Source of the DNA: Prosthecobacter sp.
GTDB taxonomy: Bacteria > Verrucomicrobiota > Verrucomicrobiia > Verrucomicrobiales > Verrucomicrobiaceae
Direction: 5' to 3'
Length of the DNA: 64,000 nucleotides
Assembly (NCBI RefSeq): GCF_014879935.1
Contig: NZ_JACSRD010000198.1
Location: 62,001-126,000, forward strand
The position numbers and the translations under genes were made by a program. The notes below the pieces were generated by a model. The model did no database searches and was not told the DNA's origin. It worked only from the letters and a program-made list of their open reading frames with translations. Positions 5,471 through 33,776 of this stretch are shown here, in pieces (positions within the stretch are counted from its first letter, which is position 1; every line of letters begins with the position of its first letter).

Positions 5471-6451
5471 ATGAAAACAAGAACGCGGCTTTCAGCATGG
5501 GTTTACCTGGCGGTACTCGTGGGCATCTTCACCCTTCAGAAGACATGGGGTGGCATCGTCCGCAGCGGACCGATTCCCACACCTGACCAAGCCATCGGTG
5601 ACCTGACGCGGGCGACGTCGCTCGAACGCTCGACCTTCGCGAATGACAAGGCGTTCTTCACCCCCATTCGCAAGCCTCAGCCGGGCGACTGGCTGGCTGA
5701 GCACGATGAACCCGGCCAGACCGTCCTCGAGTATCGTCTGGGCTTGTCGGCATTGAAACCGACACCGGAACAGAAGGCTCTCTACATGTTGCCGCTCGGG
5801 CAATTCGAGCCCGGCAGCCCTTCTCTCGCCAAGCTCCGTGAGTTCGGCGCTGCCTTTTTTGGCATGGAGACACGGCTGTTGAGAGTGACGGCTGTGGAGA
5901 AGGTGCCCGCCAAACGCCGCATATTCGGGCGGCCCCCGAAACGGCAGCTTCTCTCCACGGACATCCTCGAGTGGCTGCCTGGCGTCAAACCGCGCGACGC
6001 TTACTCGATCATCGCCGTGACGATGGAGGACTTGTATCCCGACGAGGCCTGGAATTTCGTGTTCGGCCAGGCGACCTTGCAAGGCGGGGCGGGCGTGTTC
6101 AGTTTTGCACGCTACGACCCGGCATTTTATGGCATCAAACGAGATGAGCAGACGCAGGCGCTCATTCTCAAACGAAGCTGCAAGGTGCTGGCCCACGAAA
6201 CCGGCCACATGTTCGGCCTGATGCATTGTGTGTTCTTCGAGTGTCTCATGAACGGCTCAAATCACCTCGACGAGACAGACACGAGGCCGATGCATCTTTG
6301 CCCCGTGTGTCTGCGCAAGCTGCAACTCAGCTCAGGTTTTGATCTCCTGAAACGCGAGGAGGCGCTGCTGAAGTTTTTCGAGGCCAATTCGATTACAGAC
6401 GAGGCAGCTTGGTCGCGCCGCTGGCTGGAAAAGCTCCGCTCGGCCAAATGA
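5471..6451 (+). CDS. Archaemetzincin-like zinc metalloprotease (M54), exported or membrane-anchored
   Basis: A 326-residue protein with a hydrophobic N-terminal segment (VYLAVLVGIFTLQ), so probably exported or anchored. The zinc site is clear: H242-E-x-x-H246-x-x-G-x-x-H252, followed by C253, C258 and Met260, then C277-P-V-C280, which is the archaemetzincin pattern of an HExxHxxGxxH motif plus four structural cysteines. Residues around YSIIAVTMEDLYPDEAWNF and FGQATLQGGAGVFSFARYDP also match that family. Archaeal and animal archaemetzincins are mostly shorter; the N-terminal 100 residues here are extra. The natural substrate is unknown. Confidence 0.9.
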   Translation: MKTRTRLSAWVYLAVLVGIFTLQKTWGGIVRSGPIPTPDQAIGDLTRATSLERSTFANDKAFFTPIRKPQPGDWLAEHDEPGQTVLEYRLGLSALKPTPEQKALYMLPLGQFEPGSPSLAKLREFGAAFFGMETRLLRVTAVEKVPAKRRIFGRPPKRQLLSTDILEWLPGVKPRDAYSIIAVTMEDLYPDEAWNFVFGQATLQGGAGVFSFARYDPAFYGIKRDEQTQALILKRSCKVLAHETGHMFGLMHCVFFECLMNGSNHLDETDTRPMHLCPVCLRKLQLSSGFDLLKREEALLKFFEANSITDEAAWSRRWLEKLRSAK

Positions 6452-6454
6452 GGC

Positions 6455-7672
6455 TCACCACAACTTCCACGCGACAAGTTGTTTGTCATCGCGTGCGAAC
6501 AGACGGCTTCCTGCGAAAGCCGGATGCGCCCAAGTTTTGCCGATGATCTGCCAGCGAGTCAGTTCTTCGCGTTTTTCGGGCGTGAGTGCCACATAGACGA
6601 GTTCGCCGTCGGCATTGAGCAGCGCGGCGAGATTCTTCGACTCGTCCATCCATACGAGGCTCATCTGGGGATTGCGATCCTTTGGTGTGAGCGTGTTGTC
6701 ATCGCTCCAGAGGATTTTGCCGGTCTTGAGCTCGAAGGCCGGTAATCCGCGATTTTTGTCGAGCATGTAAACAACGCCGTCTCTGAACAATGGAGCCGAC
6801 ATCAGCCCGCAGATGTCGGTTTCATTCTCCCATAGCAATTCGACGCCTGTTCCGAGCCGGAAGGTTTTCGCGCCGTGCCAGTAGCCGGAAACCATCAGCA
6901 CGCCGTCATGAAACAGCGGCTGGGCGATGCTCACGCCATACGTGATCTTGTAGGGATGCACCCAGTTCACCGCACCCGTGTCCGGATTGAGGCTCTGCAC
7001 ATGTTCCGGCCCCCAGGCGATGAGTTGTCGTGCCCCGGCATGAGAAATGATCTCCGGTGTGCAGTAGCCCGCTTTGTCAGGCCCTCCGCGCCACACTTCT
7101 TTGCCGGTGTTCTTGTCCAAAGCGATGACTGATCCGTCCTTCGCTCCGACGTGCAGCAGCACACGATCTCCATCGAGGACTGGTGAAGCGGCAAAACCCC
7201 ACGTGGGCACCTTTGCTCCGCAGGTTTCGACGGTGTTCACCTCCCAGATCGCTTTCCCTGTCGTTGCGTCCAGGCAAACCGCCACACCCGTGGCTCCCAG
7301 CGCATACGCCCGTCCTTCACGGATGTTCACGGAGGTGCGAGGCCCGGTGGCGTAATCCATGCTGCCGTAGCTCACTTCCCATTCGTGCTTCCACAGTTCC
7401 TTGCCGCTCTCGGCATCGAAGCACAGCATGCGTTCGACTTCTTTCGGCGTTTTCAGGCGATCCATCACATAGACGCGGCCTTGGCTCACGGTCACGCCGC
7501 CGAATCCAGCGCCGATGTTCGTTTTCCACATCTGTTGTGGCTCTTTGTTCGCAAAATCAGCGGGAAGGCCTTCGGGATTCCAGCGTCCATCGCCGTTCAC
7601 GCCACGCCAGCGCGGCCAGTCCTGGGCGTGGAGTGTTGTGGTGAGCGCAAGCAGGCAAAAAACTTTTTTCAT
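6455..7672 (-). CDS. Exported PQQ-like beta-propeller protein
   Basis: A 405-residue exported protein (signal MKKVFCLLALTTTLHAQ). It consists of repeated blades such as LCFDAESGKELWKHEW, VCLDATTGKAIWEVN, IALDKNTGKEVWRGG and FELKTGKILWSDD, the tryptophan-docking pattern of PQQ-like (quinoprotein or BamB-like) propellers. The opening DWPRWRGVNGDGRW is typical of Verrucomicrobia and Planctomycetes members. I see no dehydrogenase catalytic loop, so it may be a non-enzymatic scaffold or a sugar-oxidising enzyme. It converges on the archaemetzincin gene with three bases between stops and is paralogous to the gene at 47713. Confidence 0.9.
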   Translation of the reverse strand: MKKVFCLLALTTTLHAQDWPRWRGVNGDGRWNPEGLPADFANKEPQQMWKTNIGAGFGGVTVSQGRVYVMDRLKTPKEVERMLCFDAESGKELWKHEWEVSYGSMDYATGPRTSVNIREGRAYALGATGVAVCLDATTGKAIWEVNTVETCGAKVPTWGFAASPVLDGDRVLLHVGAKDGSVIALDKNTGKEVWRGGPDKAGYCTPEIISHAGARQLIAWGPEHVQSLNPDTGAVNWVHPYKITYGVSIAQPLFHDGVLMVSGYWHGAKTFRLGTGVELLWENETDICGLMSAPLFRDGVVYMLDKNRGLPAFELKTGKILWSDDNTLTPKDRNPQMSLVWMDESKNLAALLNADGELVYVALTPEKREELTRWQIIGKTWAHPAFAGSRLFARDDKQLVAWKLW

Positions 7673-20182: not shown

Positions 20183-20965
20183 ATGCATTCCATTTCCGGT
20201 CAGAACATCGTCATCATGGGCGGCACGACGGGTCTAGGCCTTTCCGCCGCGAAAAAACTCGTCGCCGCCGGCGCGAACATCGTCGTCACTAGCCGCACGC
20301 AGGCCAAAGTCGATGCCGCGCTGGCCGAACTCGGCCCGCAGGCCCGCGGCTTCGCCGCCGATGCCGCCACGCCGGAGGCTGCCGAGCGTGCCGTGGCGAT
20401 GTTTGACCGGCTCGACGTGCTCTACCACGTCGCGGGCGGCAGCGGACGCTCGAAAGGCGACGGCCCGCTCCACGAACTCACCGATGAAGGCCTCGACTAC
20501 ACCCTCGACCTCAATTTGAAGTCCGTCGTGCTCTCGAATCGCGCCGCGATCCGTCAATTCATCCAGCAAGGCACCGGCGGCGTCATCCTGAACATGGCCA
20601 GCGTGCTCGGTTACTCGCCCTCGCCGAAGTTTTTCGCCTCCCACGCCTACGCGGCGGCAAAAGCGGGCATCATTGGCTTCAGCAAATCCATCGCCGCTTA
20701 CTACGCCCCGCAAAACATCCGCGTGAACGTCATCGCTCCTGCACTCGTCGAGACACCGATGTCTAAACGCGCCGCGACGAATGACGACATCATGACCTTC
20801 ATCAAAACCAAGCAACCCCTCGACGGCGGCCGAATCGGGCATCCCGACGACTGCGATGCCGCCGCACTCATGCTGCTCAGCCCCGATTCCAAATTCATCA
20901 CCGGCCAGGTCCTCGCCGTCGATGGCGGATGGAGCGTCAGCGAAGGTCAGATCCATGCTTCTTAA
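20183..20965 (+). CDS. Short-chain dehydrogenase/reductase (SDR)
   Basis: A 260-residue NAD(P)-dependent oxidoreductase starting at 20183. The Rossmann motif is GGTTGLGLS near residue 13, NNAG is replaced by VAGG (YHVAGGSGRS), the catalytic Ser lies in NMASVLGYS and the Tyr/Lys pair in HAYAAAKAG. It ends with GQVLAVDGGWSVSEG, the usual SDR C-terminus. The arginine in TSRTQAKVD after strand 2 suggests NADP(H). It is the first of three co-directional genes (SDR, ROK, SIS), which suggests sugar or amino-sugar use. Its TAA stop overlaps the first bases of a hairpin repeat. Confidence 0.93.
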   Translation: MHSISGQNIVIMGGTTGLGLSAAKKLVAAGANIVVTSRTQAKVDAALAELGPQARGFAADAATPEAAERAVAMFDRLDVLYHVAGGSGRSKGDGPLHELTDEGLDYTLDLNLKSVVLSNRAAIRQFIQQGTGGVILNMASVLGYSPSPKFFASHAYAAAKAGIIGFSKSIAAYYAPQNIRVNVIAPALVETPMSKRAATNDDIMTFIKTKQPLDGGRIGHPDDCDAAALMLLSPDSKFITGQVLAVDGGWSVSEGQIHAS

Positions 20966-21036
20966 CCGCTGATAAGACGCTCATTTGACGCTGATGGATC
21001 GGATATTAGCGTCATGTCAGCGTCACATTAGCGGTT
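20964..21036 (+). repeat. 73-bp hairpin element made of GACGCT units, copy 1
   Basis: Left arm begins AACCGCTGATAAGACGCT and the right arm ends CACATTAGCGGTT. The reverse complement of the right arm aligns with the left arm over about 33 bases with few mismatches. Each arm holds three copies of a unit like GACGCTRAT. The stop codon of the SDR gene (TAA, 20963-20965) is formed with the element's first two bases. There is no T tract, so it is not a standard terminator. Copy 2 is at 21967. Confidence 0.85.
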
Positions 21037-21063
21037 TCCAATTCTCCACATCCAACCTGAAAC

Positions 21064-21975
21064 TTGAAACCTGAAACGTTGAACTTGGCCATCGGCATCG
21101 ACCTCGGCGGCACGAACATCAAAGCCGCGCTCGTGGGCACGCAGTCCGCGAAAACGCTCGCCACGCTCTCGAAACCCACGCGTGATGGCGAATTCGACGG
21201 CGATACGCCACGTTTCGCCCTCACCGTGCGCGAGATCGTGAGTGAATTCGAAGCGCAGGCAGGCCGAAAGCTCGCCGTCGGCCTCTCCGCACCCGGTTTG
21301 GCGAATCCGAACGGCCAATGCATCGACTGGATGCCTGGACGCATGCACGGACTCGAAAAGTTCAATTGGTCCGCCTTCCTCGAACGCGACTGCCGCGTGC
21401 TCAACGACGCCCACGCCGCCCTCCTCGGCGAAGTCTGGGCCGGAGCCGCGAAGAACTGCCAGGATACCTTCATGCTCACTCTCGGCACCGGCGTCGGTGG
21501 TGCGATTTACAGTGGCGGACGCCTCCTCAGCGGCAAGATCGGTCGCGCCGGTCATCTCGGCCACATCAGCATCGACTCGAACGCCCCGCGCGACGACTTC
21601 AACACGCCCGGCAGCCTTGAAGACGCCATCGGCAATCAAACCATCGCCCAACGCGGCGGAGGTCGCTACGCCACCACGCATGCGCTGCTCGATGCCTATG
21701 CCGCGGGCGATGAACATGCCAAAAAAGTCTGGCTCACCTCCGTCCGCCATCTCGCCGCCGCCATCGCCTCGCTCATCAACGTCCTCGATCCCGAACTCAT
21801 CATCCTCGGCGGCGGCATCGCCACTGGTGCGAAGGAACTTCTTTTCAAGCCGCTCCAACAAGCTCTCGACACCTTCGAATGGCGTCCCGGTGGCAGCCAA
21901 GCCCGCATCGTGCCTGCGGAGCTAGGTGACAGCGCCGGGTGCCTCGGTTCTGTTTTCAATCTACTTAACCGCTAA
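21064..21975 (+). CDS. ROK family sugar kinase, zinc-ligand cysteines absent
   Basis: A ROK-family protein of about 303 residues. Only TTG codons are available as starts (21064, 21079 or 21085); the last two put the start just before AIGIDLGGTNIKAAL, the ATP-binding loop. Other blocks are VGLSAPGLANPNG, NDAHAALLGE, LTLGTGVGGAIYSGG and GHLGHISID. Most ROK kinases then have a CxCGxxGCxE zinc motif; here the region reads NAPRDDFNTPGSLEDAIGN, without cysteines. ROK members phosphorylate glucose, fructose or N-acetylhexosamines. With the SIS gene next to it, an amino-sugar kinase is plausible. The stop codon lies inside hairpin copy 2. Confidence 0.88.
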   Translation: MKPETLNLAIGIDLGGTNIKAALVGTQSAKTLATLSKPTRDGEFDGDTPRFALTVREIVSEFEAQAGRKLAVGLSAPGLANPNGQCIDWMPGRMHGLEKFNWSAFLERDCRVLNDAHAALLGEVWAGAAKNCQDTFMLTLGTGVGGAIYSGGRLLSGKIGRAGHLGHISIDSNAPRDDFNTPGSLEDAIGNQTIAQRGGGRYATTHALLDAYAAGDEHAKKVWLTSVRHLAAAIASLINVLDPELIILGGGIATGAKELLFKPLQQALDTFEWRPGGSQARIVPAELGDSAGCLGSVFNLLNR

Positions 21976-22043
21976 TTGGACGCTGATTTAACGCTAATAT
22001 CAGAATCCCATATCAGCGTCCTGTTAGCGTCTTATCAGCGGTT
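21967..22043 (+). repeat. 77-bp hairpin element made of GACGCT units, copy 2
   Basis: The left arm begins AACCGCTAATTGGACGCT and the right arm ends CTTATCAGCGGTT. It matches copy 1 (20964) in both arms, with the central loop differing. The ROK stop TAA (21973-21975) is within the left arm, in AACCGCTAA. It ends 18 bases before the SIS-domain start. Confidence 0.85.
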
Positions 22044-22061: not shown

Positions 22062-22841
22062 ATGACTCCAGCACTCCAATACCTCGAAGCCTCTGAACGC
22101 CTCCTAAACCGCGTCCGTGACCAACTCCCCCTCATCCAGCAGACCGCCGACCTCTTCGCGAAGACCATCCTCGCCGGCCAAATGGTCCACGTCTTCGGCT
22201 CCGGGCACAGTCGCATCCTCGTTGAGGAAATGTGGCCGCGATACGGCTCCTTTCCGGGCTTCAATCCCATCGTCGAGCTCTCACTGACCTTCCACAACCT
22301 CGTCGTCGGCGCGAACGGCCAGCGCCAGGCCATGTTCCTCGAAAACGTCAGCGGTCTCGCCAACCGCATCCTGCGCAACTTCGACCTCCAGCCCGGCGAC
22401 AGCGCGCTCGTCATCTCCAGCAGCGGCTGCAACGTTGTCCCCGTCGAGATGGCCGAGGAGTTTCAGAAACGCGGCGTCAAGGTGGCCGCCATCATCAGCA
22501 CCACCCACAGCGTAGCCAGCACCAGCCGCCACCGCGACGGAAAGAAGCTCCAGGACTTCTCCGACATTGTCCTCGACACCGGCGCCCCCGTCGGTGACGC
22601 CATGGTGAAAATCGAAGGCCTCGACACACCCGTGGCCCCCGGAAGCACCGTCGGCGGCTGCCTTCTCGTGAACGCCATCAAAGCCGAGGTGGCAGATCGT
22701 CTCACCAAAGCCGGCCAACCACCGAAGGTGCTGACCGCTGGAGCCGTTGTCGGAGCCGCGAAGGCCACCGAGCTGTTTGAAGCCGCTTATGATGAGCACG
22801 CGCGACGCATTGCGAGGTATTATGCGAAGCTGGGGGTATGA
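22062..22841 (+). CDS. SIS domain sugar isomerase-like protein (UPF0309 type)
   Basis: A 259-residue cytoplasmic protein with one SIS domain. FAKTILAGQMVHVFGSGHSRIL near the N-terminus and LVISSSGCNVVPVEMAEEF are the sugar-phosphate binding strands, with the Ser-rich SSSG loop. The layout resembles the UPF0309 family rather than the two-domain GlmS isomerase. SIS domains bind phosphorylated sugars, usually amino sugars, for isomerisation or as a sensor. It follows the ROK gene across hairpin copy 2 and probably belongs to the same unit. Confidence 0.87.
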   Translation: MTPALQYLEASERLLNRVRDQLPLIQQTADLFAKTILAGQMVHVFGSGHSRILVEEMWPRYGSFPGFNPIVELSLTFHNLVVGANGQRQAMFLENVSGLANRILRNFDLQPGDSALVISSSGCNVVPVEMAEEFQKRGVKVAAIISTTHSVASTSRHRDGKKLQDFSDIVLDTGAPVGDAMVKIEGLDTPVAPGSTVGGCLLVNAIKAEVADRLTKAGQPPKVLTAGAVVGAAKATELFEAAYDEHARRIARYYAKLGV

Positions 22842-24788: not shown

Positions 24789-24830
24789 GCCGCAAAATAA
24801 CCGGATGGCATTCAAGAGCGCTTGTCGTTT

Positions 24831-24904
24831 TGGAGTGCTCCAGCCCCTGGAGCTTTTCGCATGCCCTGGGACGCTCTAAAGCGCCAGAGGGCTGGCGCAC
24901 TCCA
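24831..24904. repeat. 74-bp palindromic element
   Basis: The element starts TGGAGTGCTCCAGCCCC and ends GGGCTGGCGCACTCCA; the arms pair over about 26 bases with mismatches, and each arm contains its own small hairpin (CTCCAGCCCCTGGAG; GCGCCAGAGGGCTGGCGC). No T tract follows. It fills most of the 175-base gap between the MetE-like gene and the PP2C gene, whose stops face each other. It looks like a dispersed REP- or MITE-type repeat. Confidence 0.7.
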
Positions 24905-24963
24905 GGACGCTGCCGCGACTCACGTGAATGTCATGGTTAACGCGGTTCAGACAGGCACGAATC

Positions 24964-30474: not shown

Positions 30475-31166
30475 CTTCCTCCTTCCACGACACCCGCTGG
30501 ACGCTCGTGTCACGCTCGCGTGGCAGTGACACGCAGGCTGCGGCGGCGCTGAACGAGTTGTGTGAGGCCTACTATGCGCCGGTGGTGGCGTTTTTGAGGC
30601 GGAGCGGTCGCGAGGACGATGCGGCGCGGGAGCTGGCGCATGATTTTTTTGCCAAACTGCTCGCCGGTGGCGCGATGGATGGCGCGAGGCCGGAGCGCGG
30701 GAAATTTCGCAGCTACTTGCTCGGGGCCTTGAAGCACTTTGCGGCCGATCAGCGGGACAAGAAGCGTGCGGAAAAGCGTGGTGGAGGTGTGGAGCATGCT
30801 GAGATCGACGCAGAGCATGAAATGGCCGATTTGGCCGCTGAATCGCCGGATTGGGCCTTTGACCGGCAGTGGGCGCTGACGGTGCTGGCCAGAAGTTTGA
30901 GCCGTTTGGAGGCTGAAATGACCGCCGAGGGCAAAGATGCGCATTTTGAGGCCTTGAAGCCGTGGTTGACCACAGACTCGGATTCGACGCCGCAGGCCAC
31001 CGCAGCCGAAAAACTCGGCATGAGCATCGAGGCGGTCAAAGTGGCCATCCACCGGCTGCGGAAGCGCTTCCGCGACAGCGTGAAGGCCGAGATCGGGCAA
31101 ACGGTCAGCGAAGCCGGCAGCGTTCGCGAGGAACTCGATGCGTTGATGAGCGCCTTGCGAAAGTAG
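30471..31166 (+). CDS. ECF-like sigma-70 family sigma factor
   Basis: A 231-residue sigma factor. Region 2 is AALNELCEAYYAPVVAFLRR, EDDAARELAHDFFAKLL and RGKFRSYLLGALKHFAADQR. Region 4 is AAEKLGMSIEAVKVAIHRLRKRFRDSVK, a helix-turn-helix for -35 recognition. Its opening (SFHDTRWTLVSRSRG) is typical of PVC-phylum sigma factors found beside Ser/Thr kinases. The ATGA overlap with the kinase gene means translational coupling, so the kinase probably controls this factor. The stop codon (AAG TAG) coincides with the GTAG of the first REP palindrome. Confidence 0.9.
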   Translation: MTSSFHDTRWTLVSRSRGSDTQAAAALNELCEAYYAPVVAFLRRSGREDDAARELAHDFFAKLLAGGAMDGARPERGKFRSYLLGALKHFAADQRDKKRAEKRGGGVEHAEIDAEHEMADLAAESPDWAFDRQWALTVLARSLSRLEAEMTAEGKDAHFEALKPWLTTDSDSTPQATAAEKLGMSIEAVKVAIHRLRKRFRDSVKAEIGQTVSEAGSVREELDALMSALRK

Positions 31167-31219
31167 GTCTGTTGCGCCGCAACAAACTGGTTCGGGGTTC
31201 CCGGTTGCGGCGCAACTGG
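31163..31219. repeat. REP pair upstream of the RAYT gene
   Basis: GTAG (31163-31166), then GTTGCGCCGCAAC (31171-31183) is a REP hairpin on the plus strand. CCGGTTGCGGCGCAACTGG (31201-31219) is a second, inverted copy with a decayed tag (CTTGC instead of CTAC). They lie between the sigma factor stop and the transposase start. The same core GTTGCGnCGCAAC recurs downstream of the transposase. Confidence 0.85.
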
Positions 31220-31237
31220 CTTGCTTTACGCTCGCGC

Positions 31238-31885
31238 ATGGAGTTTCGATTTTTCGATCCATCGGCGAAGACAGAGGTCACACACGGGCATCTGCCGCAT
31301 TGGGAGCAGATGAATGCGTTTTACTTCATCACCTGGCGGACGGCGGATTCGATTCCGGCTGATGCGCTCGAGAAGTGGCAAGCCGGGCGTGAGGCATGGT
31401 TGTGGTCTCATGGAATCGATTCAGCGCTGGAAGACTGGCAGCGGGAGCTGGAGTGTCTGCCAGAAGCGGAGCATCAGGAGTTTTATCGTCTTGTCACCAC
31501 GAAGTGGCATTCAATGCTGGACGAATGTCATGGCGATTGCGTGCTGCGGAGGCCGGAGTTGAGCGAGATCGTCGCTGAGAACATGCTGCATCAAGATGGC
31601 ATCAAGTATTCCATGGAGGCATTTGTGGTCATGCCGAACCATGTACATGTGCTGGCGGGTGTTGCCGGACGCGGTGAGATGAAACGGTTGTGCCGGAATT
31701 GGAAGCGCTATACGGCAGGACGCATCAACGCAGTGCTGAATCGCGAAGGGCAGTTCTGGCAATGGGAGATCTTTGATCACGTCGTGCGCAGCGAGGCGAG
31801 CTTGAGGAGGTTCAGGGAGTATGTCGTGAACAATCCTGTGAAGGCTCGCTTGAAGGCCGATGAGTATCGAGTGTGGACAAAGTAG
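31238..31885 (+). CDS. REP-associated tyrosine transposase (RAYT, TnpA-REP)
   Basis: A 215-residue Y1-transposase from ATG 31238. The HUH motif is H135-V-H137 in MPNHVHVL and the nucleophile is probably Y195 in FREYVVNNPVKA; both belong to the RAYT/IS200-related family. RAYTs cut and join single-stranded REP hairpins next to a GTAG tag and are usually domesticated single-copy genes. Here REP hairpins with GTAG flank both sides. The RAYT is inserted between the sigma factor and aspS, which converge. Its own stop (AAG TAG) overlaps the downstream GTAG. Confidence 0.92.
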   Translation: MEFRFFDPSAKTEVTHGHLPHWEQMNAFYFITWRTADSIPADALEKWQAGREAWLWSHGIDSALEDWQRELECLPEAEHQEFYRLVTTKWHSMLDECHGDCVLRRPELSEIVAENMLHQDGIKYSMEAFVVMPNHVHVLAGVAGRGEMKRLCRNWKRYTAGRINAVLNREGQFWQWEIFDHVVRSEASLRRFREYVVNNPVKARLKADEYRVWTK

Positions 31886-31944
31886 GCCAGTTGCGCTGCA
31901 ACTGGCAGTTCGGTAAGACTCAGTTGTGGCGCAAAATGAGCTAC
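31882..31944. repeat. REP pair downstream of the RAYT gene
   Basis: GTAG-GCCAGTTGCGCTGCAACTGGC (31882-31906) has a 9-bp stem with GCT loop. A degenerate inverted copy follows, read on the minus strand as GTAG-CTCATTTTGCGCCACAACTGAG (31944-31920). The GTAG of the first is shared with the RAYT stop codon; the GTAG of the second supplies the aspS stop codon TAG (31943-31941). Confidence 0.85.
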
Positions 31945-33776
31945 TTTGCTTCCGGTTGCGGCGCAACCGGACTACTTTTTTCCTTCCAGGTGCTCTGGAT
32001 GTAGATCTCGCGGAGCGTCTTGAAGTCGATCTGCGTCGGGCTGTCAGTCATCAGGTCGCTGCCCTTGTTGTTCTTCGGGAAGGCGATGACTTCACGGATG
32101 CTGTCCTCGCCGCTGACGAGCATGGCGATGCGGTCGAGACCGAGCGCCAGACCACCGTGCGGAGGTGCGCCGAAGCGGAAGGCGTCGAGGATGTGGCCGA
32201 ATTTGTGAGCTTGTTCTTCTTCATTCACGCCGAGGACGCTGAAGAGCTTCGCTTGCAGATCCTTTTCGTGGATTCGGATGGATCCGCCGCCGAGTTCATA
32301 GCCGTTCAAGACGACGTCGTAGGCTTCAGCGCGGACTTTGGCGTATTCACCGGCTTCCATGAGCGGGATGTCTTCCGTTTTCGGACGCGTGAAGGGATGA
32401 TGCACGGCCACCCAGCTCTGCGATTCGGCATCGTGGGCAAGCAGCGGGAAATCGACGACCCACAGGAAGTTCAGCGCGGTGCTGCCTTTGGTGAGTTCGG
32501 TCATGTTGGCGATCTCGACACGCACGCGGCCGAGGATGTCACAGGCCTCCTGCCAGGTGCCGGCGTAGAAGAAGACGATGTCGTTTTCCTCGACGCCGAG
32601 CTTGGCGATGAGCGCCTTCTGCTCGTCCTCGCTGAAGAACTTCCAAAGCGGAGATTTGTATTCGAGCACGCCGTTCGCATCGCGCTCCACCTTGATGAAG
32701 GCGAGCTGCTTCACCTTCATGCCGGCCTGCGTGGCGATCTCGTTGAGACGGATCATCTGGCCGGTGGTGATGCCCGCGAAGCCCTTCGCGTTGATGGCGC
32801 GGACGACACCGCCATTCTCGATGGTGCTGCGGAAGATTTTGAAGCCGCTGTTCGCGAAGACATCGGCCATATCGACGATCTCGTTGCCGTAGCGCGTGTC
32901 CGGCTTGTCGGAGCCGTAGCGGTCCATGGCTTCTTGATACGTCATGCGCGGAAAGGGCGACGGGATGTCGCGTCCGGTGCCCGCTTTGAACATGCTGACG
33001 AGCAGGCCTTCGACGAGGTTCACGATGTCATCACGCTGGATGAAGCTAGCCTCGATATCGATCTGCGTGAACTCCGGCTGGCGGTCGGCGCGAAGGTCTT
33101 CATCGCGGAAGCAGCGTGCAATTTGGAAGTAGCGCTCCAAACCGGCCACCATCATGAGCTGCTTGTATTGCTGCGGGGCCTGCGGCAGCGCGTAGAACTT
33201 GCCGGGGTTCAAGCGGGCGGGCACGAGGAAGTCGCGGGCGCCTTCCGGTGTCGGATTGCTGAGGATCGGCGTTTCGACTTCGATGAAGCCGGCGGCGTCG
33301 AGATGATTGCGGGCGGCGTTGGTGATCTTGTGGCGCGTGCGGATGTTCTTGTTCATGCGCTCGCGGCGCAGGTCGAGGTAGCGGTATTTCATCCGCATGT
33401 CCTCGTTCGAGAGCTCGCGATCGAGCTGGAAGGGCAGCACATCGGCCTTGTTAAGCACTTTGCACTCGGTGGCGACGATTTCGACATCGCCGGTGCCGAG
33501 TTTGGCGTTTTCGGTGCCGGTGAGACGCGCGGCGACCTTGCCGGTGATCTGCAAAACGTCCTCGTCACGCAGCGTGTGGCTCATCGCGGCGAGTTCGGCG
33601 TTTTCCTCCGGGCGGAAGACGACCTGCGTGAGGCCCTCGCGGTCGCGCAGGTCGATGAAGATGACGCCGCCATGGTCGCGGGCCGAATTCACCCAGCCAC
33701 AGAGCGTGACGTTCTGGCCGATGTGCTCTTTGCGGACGGCGTTGCAGTGGAGGGTGCGGTAGGCGTTTGGGATCAT
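31941..33776 (-). CDS. aspS: Aspartyl-tRNA synthetase
   Basis: A 611-residue class II aminoacyl-tRNA synthetase of the bacterial type. Order: OB anticodon-binding domain (CGWVNSARDHGGVIFIDLRD), motif 1 to motif 2 (KYRYLDLRRERM, FRDEDLRADRQPEFTQIDIE), a GAD insertion domain in the middle and motif 3 (GAPPHGGLALGLDRIAML). It charges tRNA-Asp; whether it also charges tRNA-Asn is not visible. No gatCAB genes are in the window. The conserved protein seems to end near LREIYIQSTWKEK; the last 11 residues are encoded by a REP palindrome. Confidence 0.97.
   Translation of the reverse strand: MIPNAYRTLHCNAVRKEHIGQNVTLCGWVNSARDHGGVIFIDLRDREGLTQVVFRPEENAELAAMSHTLRDEDVLQITGKVAARLTGTENAKLGTGDVEIVATECKVLNKADVLPFQLDRELSNEDMRMKYRYLDLRRERMNKNIRTRHKITNAARNHLDAAGFIEVETPILSNPTPEGARDFLVPARLNPGKFYALPQAPQQYKQLMMVAGLERYFQIARCFRDEDLRADRQPEFTQIDIEASFIQRDDIVNLVEGLLVSMFKAGTGRDIPSPFPRMTYQEAMDRYGSDKPDTRYGNEIVDMADVFANSGFKIFRSTIENGGVVRAINAKGFAGITTGQMIRLNEIATQAGMKVKQLAFIKVERDANGVLEYKSPLWKFFSEDEQKALIAKLGVEENDIVFFYAGTWQEACDILGRVRVEIANMTELTKGSTALNFLWVVDFPLLAHDAESQSWVAVHHPFTRPKTEDIPLMEAGEYAKVRAEAYDVVLNGYELGGGSIRIHEKDLQAKLFSVLGVNEEEQAHKFGHILDAFRFGAPPHGGLALGLDRIAMLVSGEDSIREVIAFPKNNKGSDLMTDSPTQIDFKTLREIYIQSTWKEKSSPVAPQPEAK
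31952..31975 (-). repeat. REP element inside the 3' end of aspS
   Basis: On the minus strand it reads GTAG-TCCGGTTGCGCCGCAACCGG, a perfect REP hairpin with its tag. It lies in the aspS reading frame and encodes part of the C-terminal tail SSPVAPQPEAK. Confidence 0.88.

Follow-up and report, generated by a model that had tools for sequence, protein, structure and literature searches.

The SDR, ROK and SIS-domain genes of this Prosthecobacter genome lie within the 64,000-nucleotide stretch of DNA that was analyzed (the window), and an imperfect palindrome is found at each of the two junctions between them (Table 1). Both palindromes follow the arm pattern AACCGCTNATNN GACGCTNATNN GACGCTNAT with a unit period of 11 bp, and both have the ends AACC...GGTT. 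In an earlier note, made from the DNA letters alone, the elements of 73 and 77 bases had been regarded as one type with three GACGCT units per arm, each overlapping the stop codon of the gene upstream. The coordinates and arms proved correct, and so did the overlap: the SDR stop codon TAA (20963-20965) extends over bases 1 and 2 of hairpin 1, and hairpin 2 contains the TAA stop codon of ROK (21973-21975). As to the likeness of the arms, the unit pattern is indeed shared, but the arms are not exact copies and differ systematically at the positions denoted R and NN.

Table 1. Genes and palindromes of the SDR-ROK-SIS cluster, in window positions.
Feature	Position	Strand	Description
SDR gene	20183..20965	+	260 aa; stop codon overlaps hairpin 1; host gene, outside the element
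Hairpin 1	20964-21036		73 nt; arms 32+32, loop 9
Hairpin 1, 5' arm	20964..20995	+	AACCGCTGATAA GACGCTCATTT GACGCTGAT, three 11-bp units
Hairpin 1, loop	20996-21004
Hairpin 1, 3' arm	21005..21036	-	reverse complement AACCGCTAATGT GACGCTGACAT GACGCTAAT
ROK gene	21064..21975	+	stop codon inside hairpin 2; host gene
Hairpin 2	21967-22043		77 nt; arms 32+32, loop 13
Hairpin 2, 5' arm	21967..21998	+	AACCGCTAATTG GACGCTGATTT AACGCTAAT
Hairpin 2, loop	21999-22011		contains CAGAATCCCAT
Hairpin 2, 3' arm	22012..22043	-	reverse complement AACCGCTGATAA GACGCTAACAG GACGCTGAT
SIS-domain gene	22062..22841	+	downstream of hairpin 2; host gene

Folding of the RNA, which had been proposed as a check, yielded -40.1 kcal/mol for hairpin 1 (z -8.0) and -32.5 kcal/mol for hairpin 2 (z -6.7), and 0 of 200 shuffled sequences were equally good. 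As previously noted, neither hairpin is followed by a T tract; the downstream sequences are TCCAATT and CAAAAATC. A search of the window against Rfam gave no match, and the remaining strong intergenic folds of the window are terminators or unrelated palindromes. One of the latter is a strong palindrome in the convergent gap at 24789-24963 (TGGAGTGCTCCAGCCCC...GCTGGCGCACTCCA, z -4.4), unrelated to GACGCT. Directly 3' of hairpin 1, at 21048-21090, (T)GAAACYT words (CCTGAAACTTGAAACCTGAAACGTTGAAC) are found that also flank four-helix-bundle genes at three other loci (L244, L250 and L251); they overlap the called start of the ROK gene and may be a half copy of a different element. Further downstream the window holds a Y1/RAYT-type gene (31238-31885, PF01797 match at 31601-31834), one of 27 Y1 matches in the genome, whose flanks (31160-31227 and 31885-31980) carry GTAG-tagged GTTGCGGCGCAAC palindromes and represent an ordinary REPtron.

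Distribution, anatomy and placement of the palindromes

The genome (7.74 Mb in 286 contigs) contains 23 matches to the arm pattern at up to 3 mismatches, and as the reversed pattern gave 0 matches the GACGCT arms are not a product of chance. Nine of the copies are full palindromes, the two window hairpins among them, and six more are clear half copies, so that the search for further copies that the earlier note had called for was successful. Its statement that the window holds only these two was borne out as well, as the genome-wide list of arms has no other place in their contig. Arms are present in 30 of 35 genomes of the genus, the present one included, and in none of 21 genomes from elsewhere in the order, with a single match of the reversed control across all 56. 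In 387 genomes sampled evenly across the phylum, matches were confined to the genome studied here and two places with 3 mismatches in other families; three further members of the genus in that sample gave no arm matches. The hairpins are thus real, repeated and spread throughout the genus. Neither of the outcomes that the earlier note had named as counting against it, a lack of other copies and arms not conserved in relatives, was encountered.

Among the matches listed for named genomes, full arms occur in Prosthecobacter, Brevifollis gellanilyticus and MAGs of the Verrucomicrobiaceae, and those labelled as other groups (e.g. Bacteroidales, Herbidospora or Mycobacterium) are single-strand, arm-like sequences with no partner arm. 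A GACGCT palindrome was also seen in a MAG labelled Akkermansia muciniphila (L159), a label that may be wrong. As far as searched, the element is restricted to the Prosthecobacter/Brevifollis genus. Note that half copies also occur in composite repeats: at four loci on two contigs of the own genome (L010, L011, L015 and L016; C163 and C243), GACGCT half arms stand beside hairpins built from GGTAGGATNATT units, another iterated-word family. In UBA7681 (L170/L118), GACGCT palindromes are arranged in tandem with a period of approximately 168 bp (L170, 3191-3728).

The anatomy of the family was derived from 79 distinct full palindromes in the fetched loci, of which 70 were retained after a filter on mismatches and loop, with 9 dropped. 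The element is 73-78 bp long with three iterated words per arm, and its commonest loop length is 14 nt (20/70 palindromes). When left and right arms were re-paired at random, the true partners matched less well than expected at R positions 8 and 19 (z -3.2 and -3.8) and at NN positions 22-23 (z -2.0 and -3.1), and no significant departure was found at R position 30 and NN positions 11-12 (-0.5, -0.7 and -1.7). A single oriented ancestor was considered as the cause of this arm asymmetry and rejected, since with respect to the orientation of the loop motif AGA versus GAG is found both ways round. In 16 pairs of copies matched by their flanks, 4 of them within one contig array, differences fell on 23 of 800 sites in the words, 17 of 96 R sites and 29 of 128 sites in the NN spacers. 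Taken together with the under-pairing of the arms, this means that words are kept, spacers drift and perfect pairing is avoided.

Placement could be assigned for 52 of the 70 elements, the others being too far from genes (12) or at locus edges (6); as the crude gene caller used overlooked the SDR gene and predicted its antisense instead, the class counts of 35 co-directional, 12 convergent and 5 divergent copies, with none inside a gene, are approximate. A stop codon lies within 14 bp in 28 of 59 cases. Outside the arms, the flanks of the copies tend to be T-rich on the 5' side and A-rich on the 3' side (TTTT-AACC...GGTT-AAAA), the reverse of the arrangement at a terminator. This wrong polarity and the missing T tract make an intrinsic terminator unlikely, and for the same reasons the attenuator suggested in the earlier note is not supported.

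A further explanation would be that the hosts have selected an intercistronic RNA hairpin, either as a shield for the 3' end of the preceding message or as a means of uncoupling translation, with its origin by transposition being secondary. The exclusively intergenic and largely co-directional placement, the short distances to stop codons, the strong folds and the conservation of words across flank-matched copies are all in line with this. However, the arms pair worse than permuted ones at the positions given above, 12 of the 52 classed copies are convergent and 5 divergent, and mispairs on the transcript strand of the 35 co-directional elements show no significant preference for G-U over A-C (36 vs 25, p = 0.20), so that there is no clear sign of selection for RNA pairing. 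The junctions themselves cut both ways: from species to species, unrelated palindromes have come to occupy the same two, as such a role would allow, but close relatives do without the element at the same junction. On balance we consider RNA selection unlikely as the principal cause. The mRNA stabilizer proposed in the earlier note may still apply, with copies at gene ends in its favor but mispairs that show no significant strand preference.

The state of the junctions was surveyed in 30 ROK orthologs read from 39 genomes of the genus. Between ROK and SIS, a GACGCT palindrome is present in the own genome, G015, G057 (with one unit lost) and G058, and in G001, G008 and G032 its place is taken by a palindrome of CACAGAG words that likewise has AACC...GGTT ends. 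The two genes overlap tightly without any palindrome in G002, G004, G012, G020, G022, G026, G027 and G030, and in G056 a four-helix-bundle gene flanked by GGATGAA words occupies the gap. Between SDR and ROK, the GACGCT hairpin is found exclusively in the own genome, with other species having either none or palindromes of other words. As evidenced by a tree of SDR and ROK for 26 taxa, the junction states are scattered, and each junction has therefore been filled more than once. No target duplication is visible at either junction, where the sequences of the empty sites have diverged. Of the possibilities raised in the earlier note, a mobile repeat is the one supported, by the dispersed copies, by orthologous junctions without a hairpin and by the gene-bearing relatives described below.

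Direct-repeat arrays are bound by regulators of the OmpR/PhoB type, and the three 11-bp direct repeats per arm might likewise be an array of sites bound by such a regulator or by an architectural protein, unconnected with mobility. The 11-bp period, the conserved 9-bp words with their drifting 2-bp spacers and the avoidance of perfect pairing between arms would all suit such an array. Nevertheless, we regard it as highly improbable: copies lie behind genes and not in promoters, their presence differs between close relatives, half copies and tandem arrays exist, and GxxExxY genes are found inside the same arms.

Genes found between iterated-word arms

In B. gellanilyticus (L173/L372/L088; L173 3103-3749), a GACGCT arm, a GxxExxY ORF and a full hairpin follow one another, and the ORF (4179-4649 in L088) scores 124.5 bits against PF13366 (cut-off 22) and 123.9 bits against TIGR04256 (cut-off 35). 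In the MAG G007 (L397/L168, CANNQP010000015.1), the ORF at 6351-6849 lies exactly between full GACGCT hairpins at 6259-6349 and 6863-6951. An ORF of PF13366/TIGR04256 between inverted arms of the same word is found in G005 and G007, and the window copies are devoid of an ORF. Among 48 genomes of the genus, close copies of the GACGCT-type gene occur exclusively in G007 (99%, the genome of the query) and G005 (82%). A degenerate form with CGCTAAT words occupies a second host locus in G003, G023 and G058. As the copies in G007 and G005 share one host locus, the direct pairing of gene and word comes down to a single orthologous insertion and the degenerate locus. No GxxExxY gene of the GACGCT type was found in the own genome, where the nearest is a GACACT-type gene with 62% identity. 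Genomes without the gene carry 27 (G027), 22 (G028) and 20 (G015) arms and G007, which has it, carries 21, so that arm number does not follow the presence of the gene.

The arrangement extends to other words. Inverted arms scoring above 25 surround 46 of 70 GxxExxY loci of the genus (30 taken by rank and 40 picked from a list) but none of the 70 reversed-flank controls, and the other 24 loci have no arms above control. Of 20 loci fetched from other genera of the Verrucomicrobiota, 4 have a GxxExxY ORF between CACAGAG arms; these arms have the AACC...GGTT ends and the ROK-SIS slot in common with the GACGCT family. A GACACT-type element in five species (L373, L375, L376, L390 and L400) represents one orthologous insertion, in some cases with full hairpins, between a gene ending in ..CVVKR and one starting with ..RRTLLNRFGMGLGG that is presumably DUF1501-like.

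The residues of the PD-(D/E)XK motif are mostly kept in the GxxExxY proteins (D in 63/63, E or D in 54/63, K in 54/63), and judging from these residues the proteins look like active nucleases. A structure prediction was uninformative (pLDDT 35.5). A sequence search of the PDB gave no natural relative up to an E value of 1, the one match (E 0.48) being a designed protein, and no relative was found in viral contigs.

A second family of small proteins shows the same arrangement. In the own genome, each of the six PF05635 four-helix-bundle genes lies between inverted repeats of an iterated word, and the word differs from gene to gene. Of 94 such loci assessed in the genus, from 95 fetched, 77 score above the 95th percentile of a control with reversed flanks. 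Four-helix-bundle genes inside GACGCT arms were also sought and found in 0 of 95 loci, with ten keyword matches being chance matches in coding sequence.

In both families, word and protein agree. A tree of 63 GxxExxY proteins, 38 of them with a called word, requires 8 changes of word label, the minimum possible, where shuffled labels need 23.4 on average and 0 of 200 shuffles were as low; the GACGCT and GACACT types, one base apart in their word, form one clade of 9 rows (99*). For the four-helix-bundle proteins, 49 rows in 11 word groups require 10 changes, again the minimum possible, vs 32.7. Linkage by descent can explain much of this agreement, since many rows are orthologous insertions: the GxxExxY rows amount to 5 at 1 host locus for GACACT, 10 at 2 for CAGGATT, 11 at 4 for ACGGAA, 3 at 2 for GACGCT and 3 at 3 for ACGGAT, and the largest four-helix word group has 14 rows at 1 host locus.

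A candidate mobile element and its known counterparts

We favor, with a probability of about 0.6, the reading that the window hairpins belong, as copies without an ORF, to an interspersed palindromic element that in its long form contains a GxxExxY nuclease gene, arranged as hairpin, small gene and hairpin or as arm, gene and hairpin. These long relatives point to a little-studied kind of mobile DNA. From co-occurrence and the agreement of the trees we infer that the GxxExxY protein may recognize the iterated word, with its units presented on one face of the helix or in a folded hairpin, and might cut or process the palindrome and thereby promote copying or insertion. It could further act in trans on ORF-less copies, as RAYT is thought to do on REPs. 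Such mobilization in trans is suggested by analogy with RAYT/REP (PMC3733652) and the 23S IVS (PMC4990558); the gene is rare and at one locus, arm numbers do not follow its presence and no duplication, excision product or moving copy was seen. Insertions would persist chiefly in operons, directly after stop codons, with the element supplying a stop codon and an intercistronic hairpin, and an RNA role of this hairpin in addition to mobility is possible. As the cognate gene is missing from the own genome, the window copies are probably relics or domesticated sequence.

More tentatively, and with rather less than even confidence, this reading may be extended to the iterated-word palindromes of the Verrucomicrobiota as a class of minimal mobile elements. 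Each of these would pair a single small protein, be it a PD-(D/E)XK nuclease of the GxxExxY family or a four-helix-bundle protein of the S23 type, with its own word of 7-11 bp, of which an arm has two to three; divergence of the protein would give rise to new word specificities, and ORF-less hairpins would be moved in trans to places behind stop codons. Proteins of both families are common, small and of unassigned function, and with most of their sampled genes lying between inverted repeats of family-specific words, two unknowns become one question, namely whether the protein is an enzyme or a partner recognizing the word. If true, the extended reading would add a second and a third REP/RAYT-like solution for spreading gene-end hairpins, built on unrelated enzymes, would assign a function to two abundant families and provide a natural series in which each protein has its short DNA word, and would account for something pervasive in these genomes that has so far had no explanation.

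By exact-word matching in the open-licence PMC literature, we found no link of GxxExxY to palindromic repeats and no report of Prosthecobacter palindromes; the repeat words themselves returned only primer-like noise, and longer words nothing. The TIGR04256/PF13366 family, both of whose curated cut-offs the long-form gene passes, is named solely by its motif.

MITEs and ERIC-like sequences are non-autonomous, intergenic, imperfect palindromes, and so are the GACGCT copies, which are non-coding and share their terminal inverted repeats with the gene-bearing loci L173/L088 and L397/L168 of other species. MITEs are also treated in PMC3733652. No target duplication was seen for the GACGCT copies, at junctions whose empty-site sequences have diverged, and the related gene is no known transposase.

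There is also a likeness to REP/REPIN sequences and their RAYT genes, as described in PMC3733652: short interspersed palindromes lie behind genes, a single-gene form is flanked by two hairpins as in REPtrons, and several families per genome each have their own gene. Given this layout and the 27 Y1_Tnp matches in the genome, the hairpins might simply be a classic REP/REPIN family moved by a genomic Y1 transposase of the RAYT type. REP/REPIN sequences, however, measure 20-40 bp with a GTAG or CGTC end tag and belong to a Y1 HUH transposase, whereas the GACGCT elements of 73-78 bp have no GTAG tag at their foot and a GxxExxY PD-(D/E)XK protein as the gene of their family. The flanks of 25 of the 27 Y1 matches were read, with GACGCT units at none and a different palindrome of their own at many. 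A classic REP family is thus a very remote prospect.

ORF-less forms are common to the elements described here and to the intervening sequences (IVS) of 23S rRNA, of which short forms without an ORF are known in Salmonella. Like the GACGCT long form, the IVS with the S23p four-helix-bundle ORF, as presented in PMC4990558, places a small ORF between terminal inverted repeats, which pair into a long stem within a transcribed region. The IVS lies in an rRNA gene and is excised by RNase III, while the window hairpins with their iterated-word stems lie between protein genes, and its ORF is S23p (PF05635), while the GACGCT form carries PF13366; S23p-type ORFs do occur in the four-helix-bundle relatives of the same genomes. 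Although it has the defining features of neither, this kind of element resembles both REP/RAYT and the IVS.
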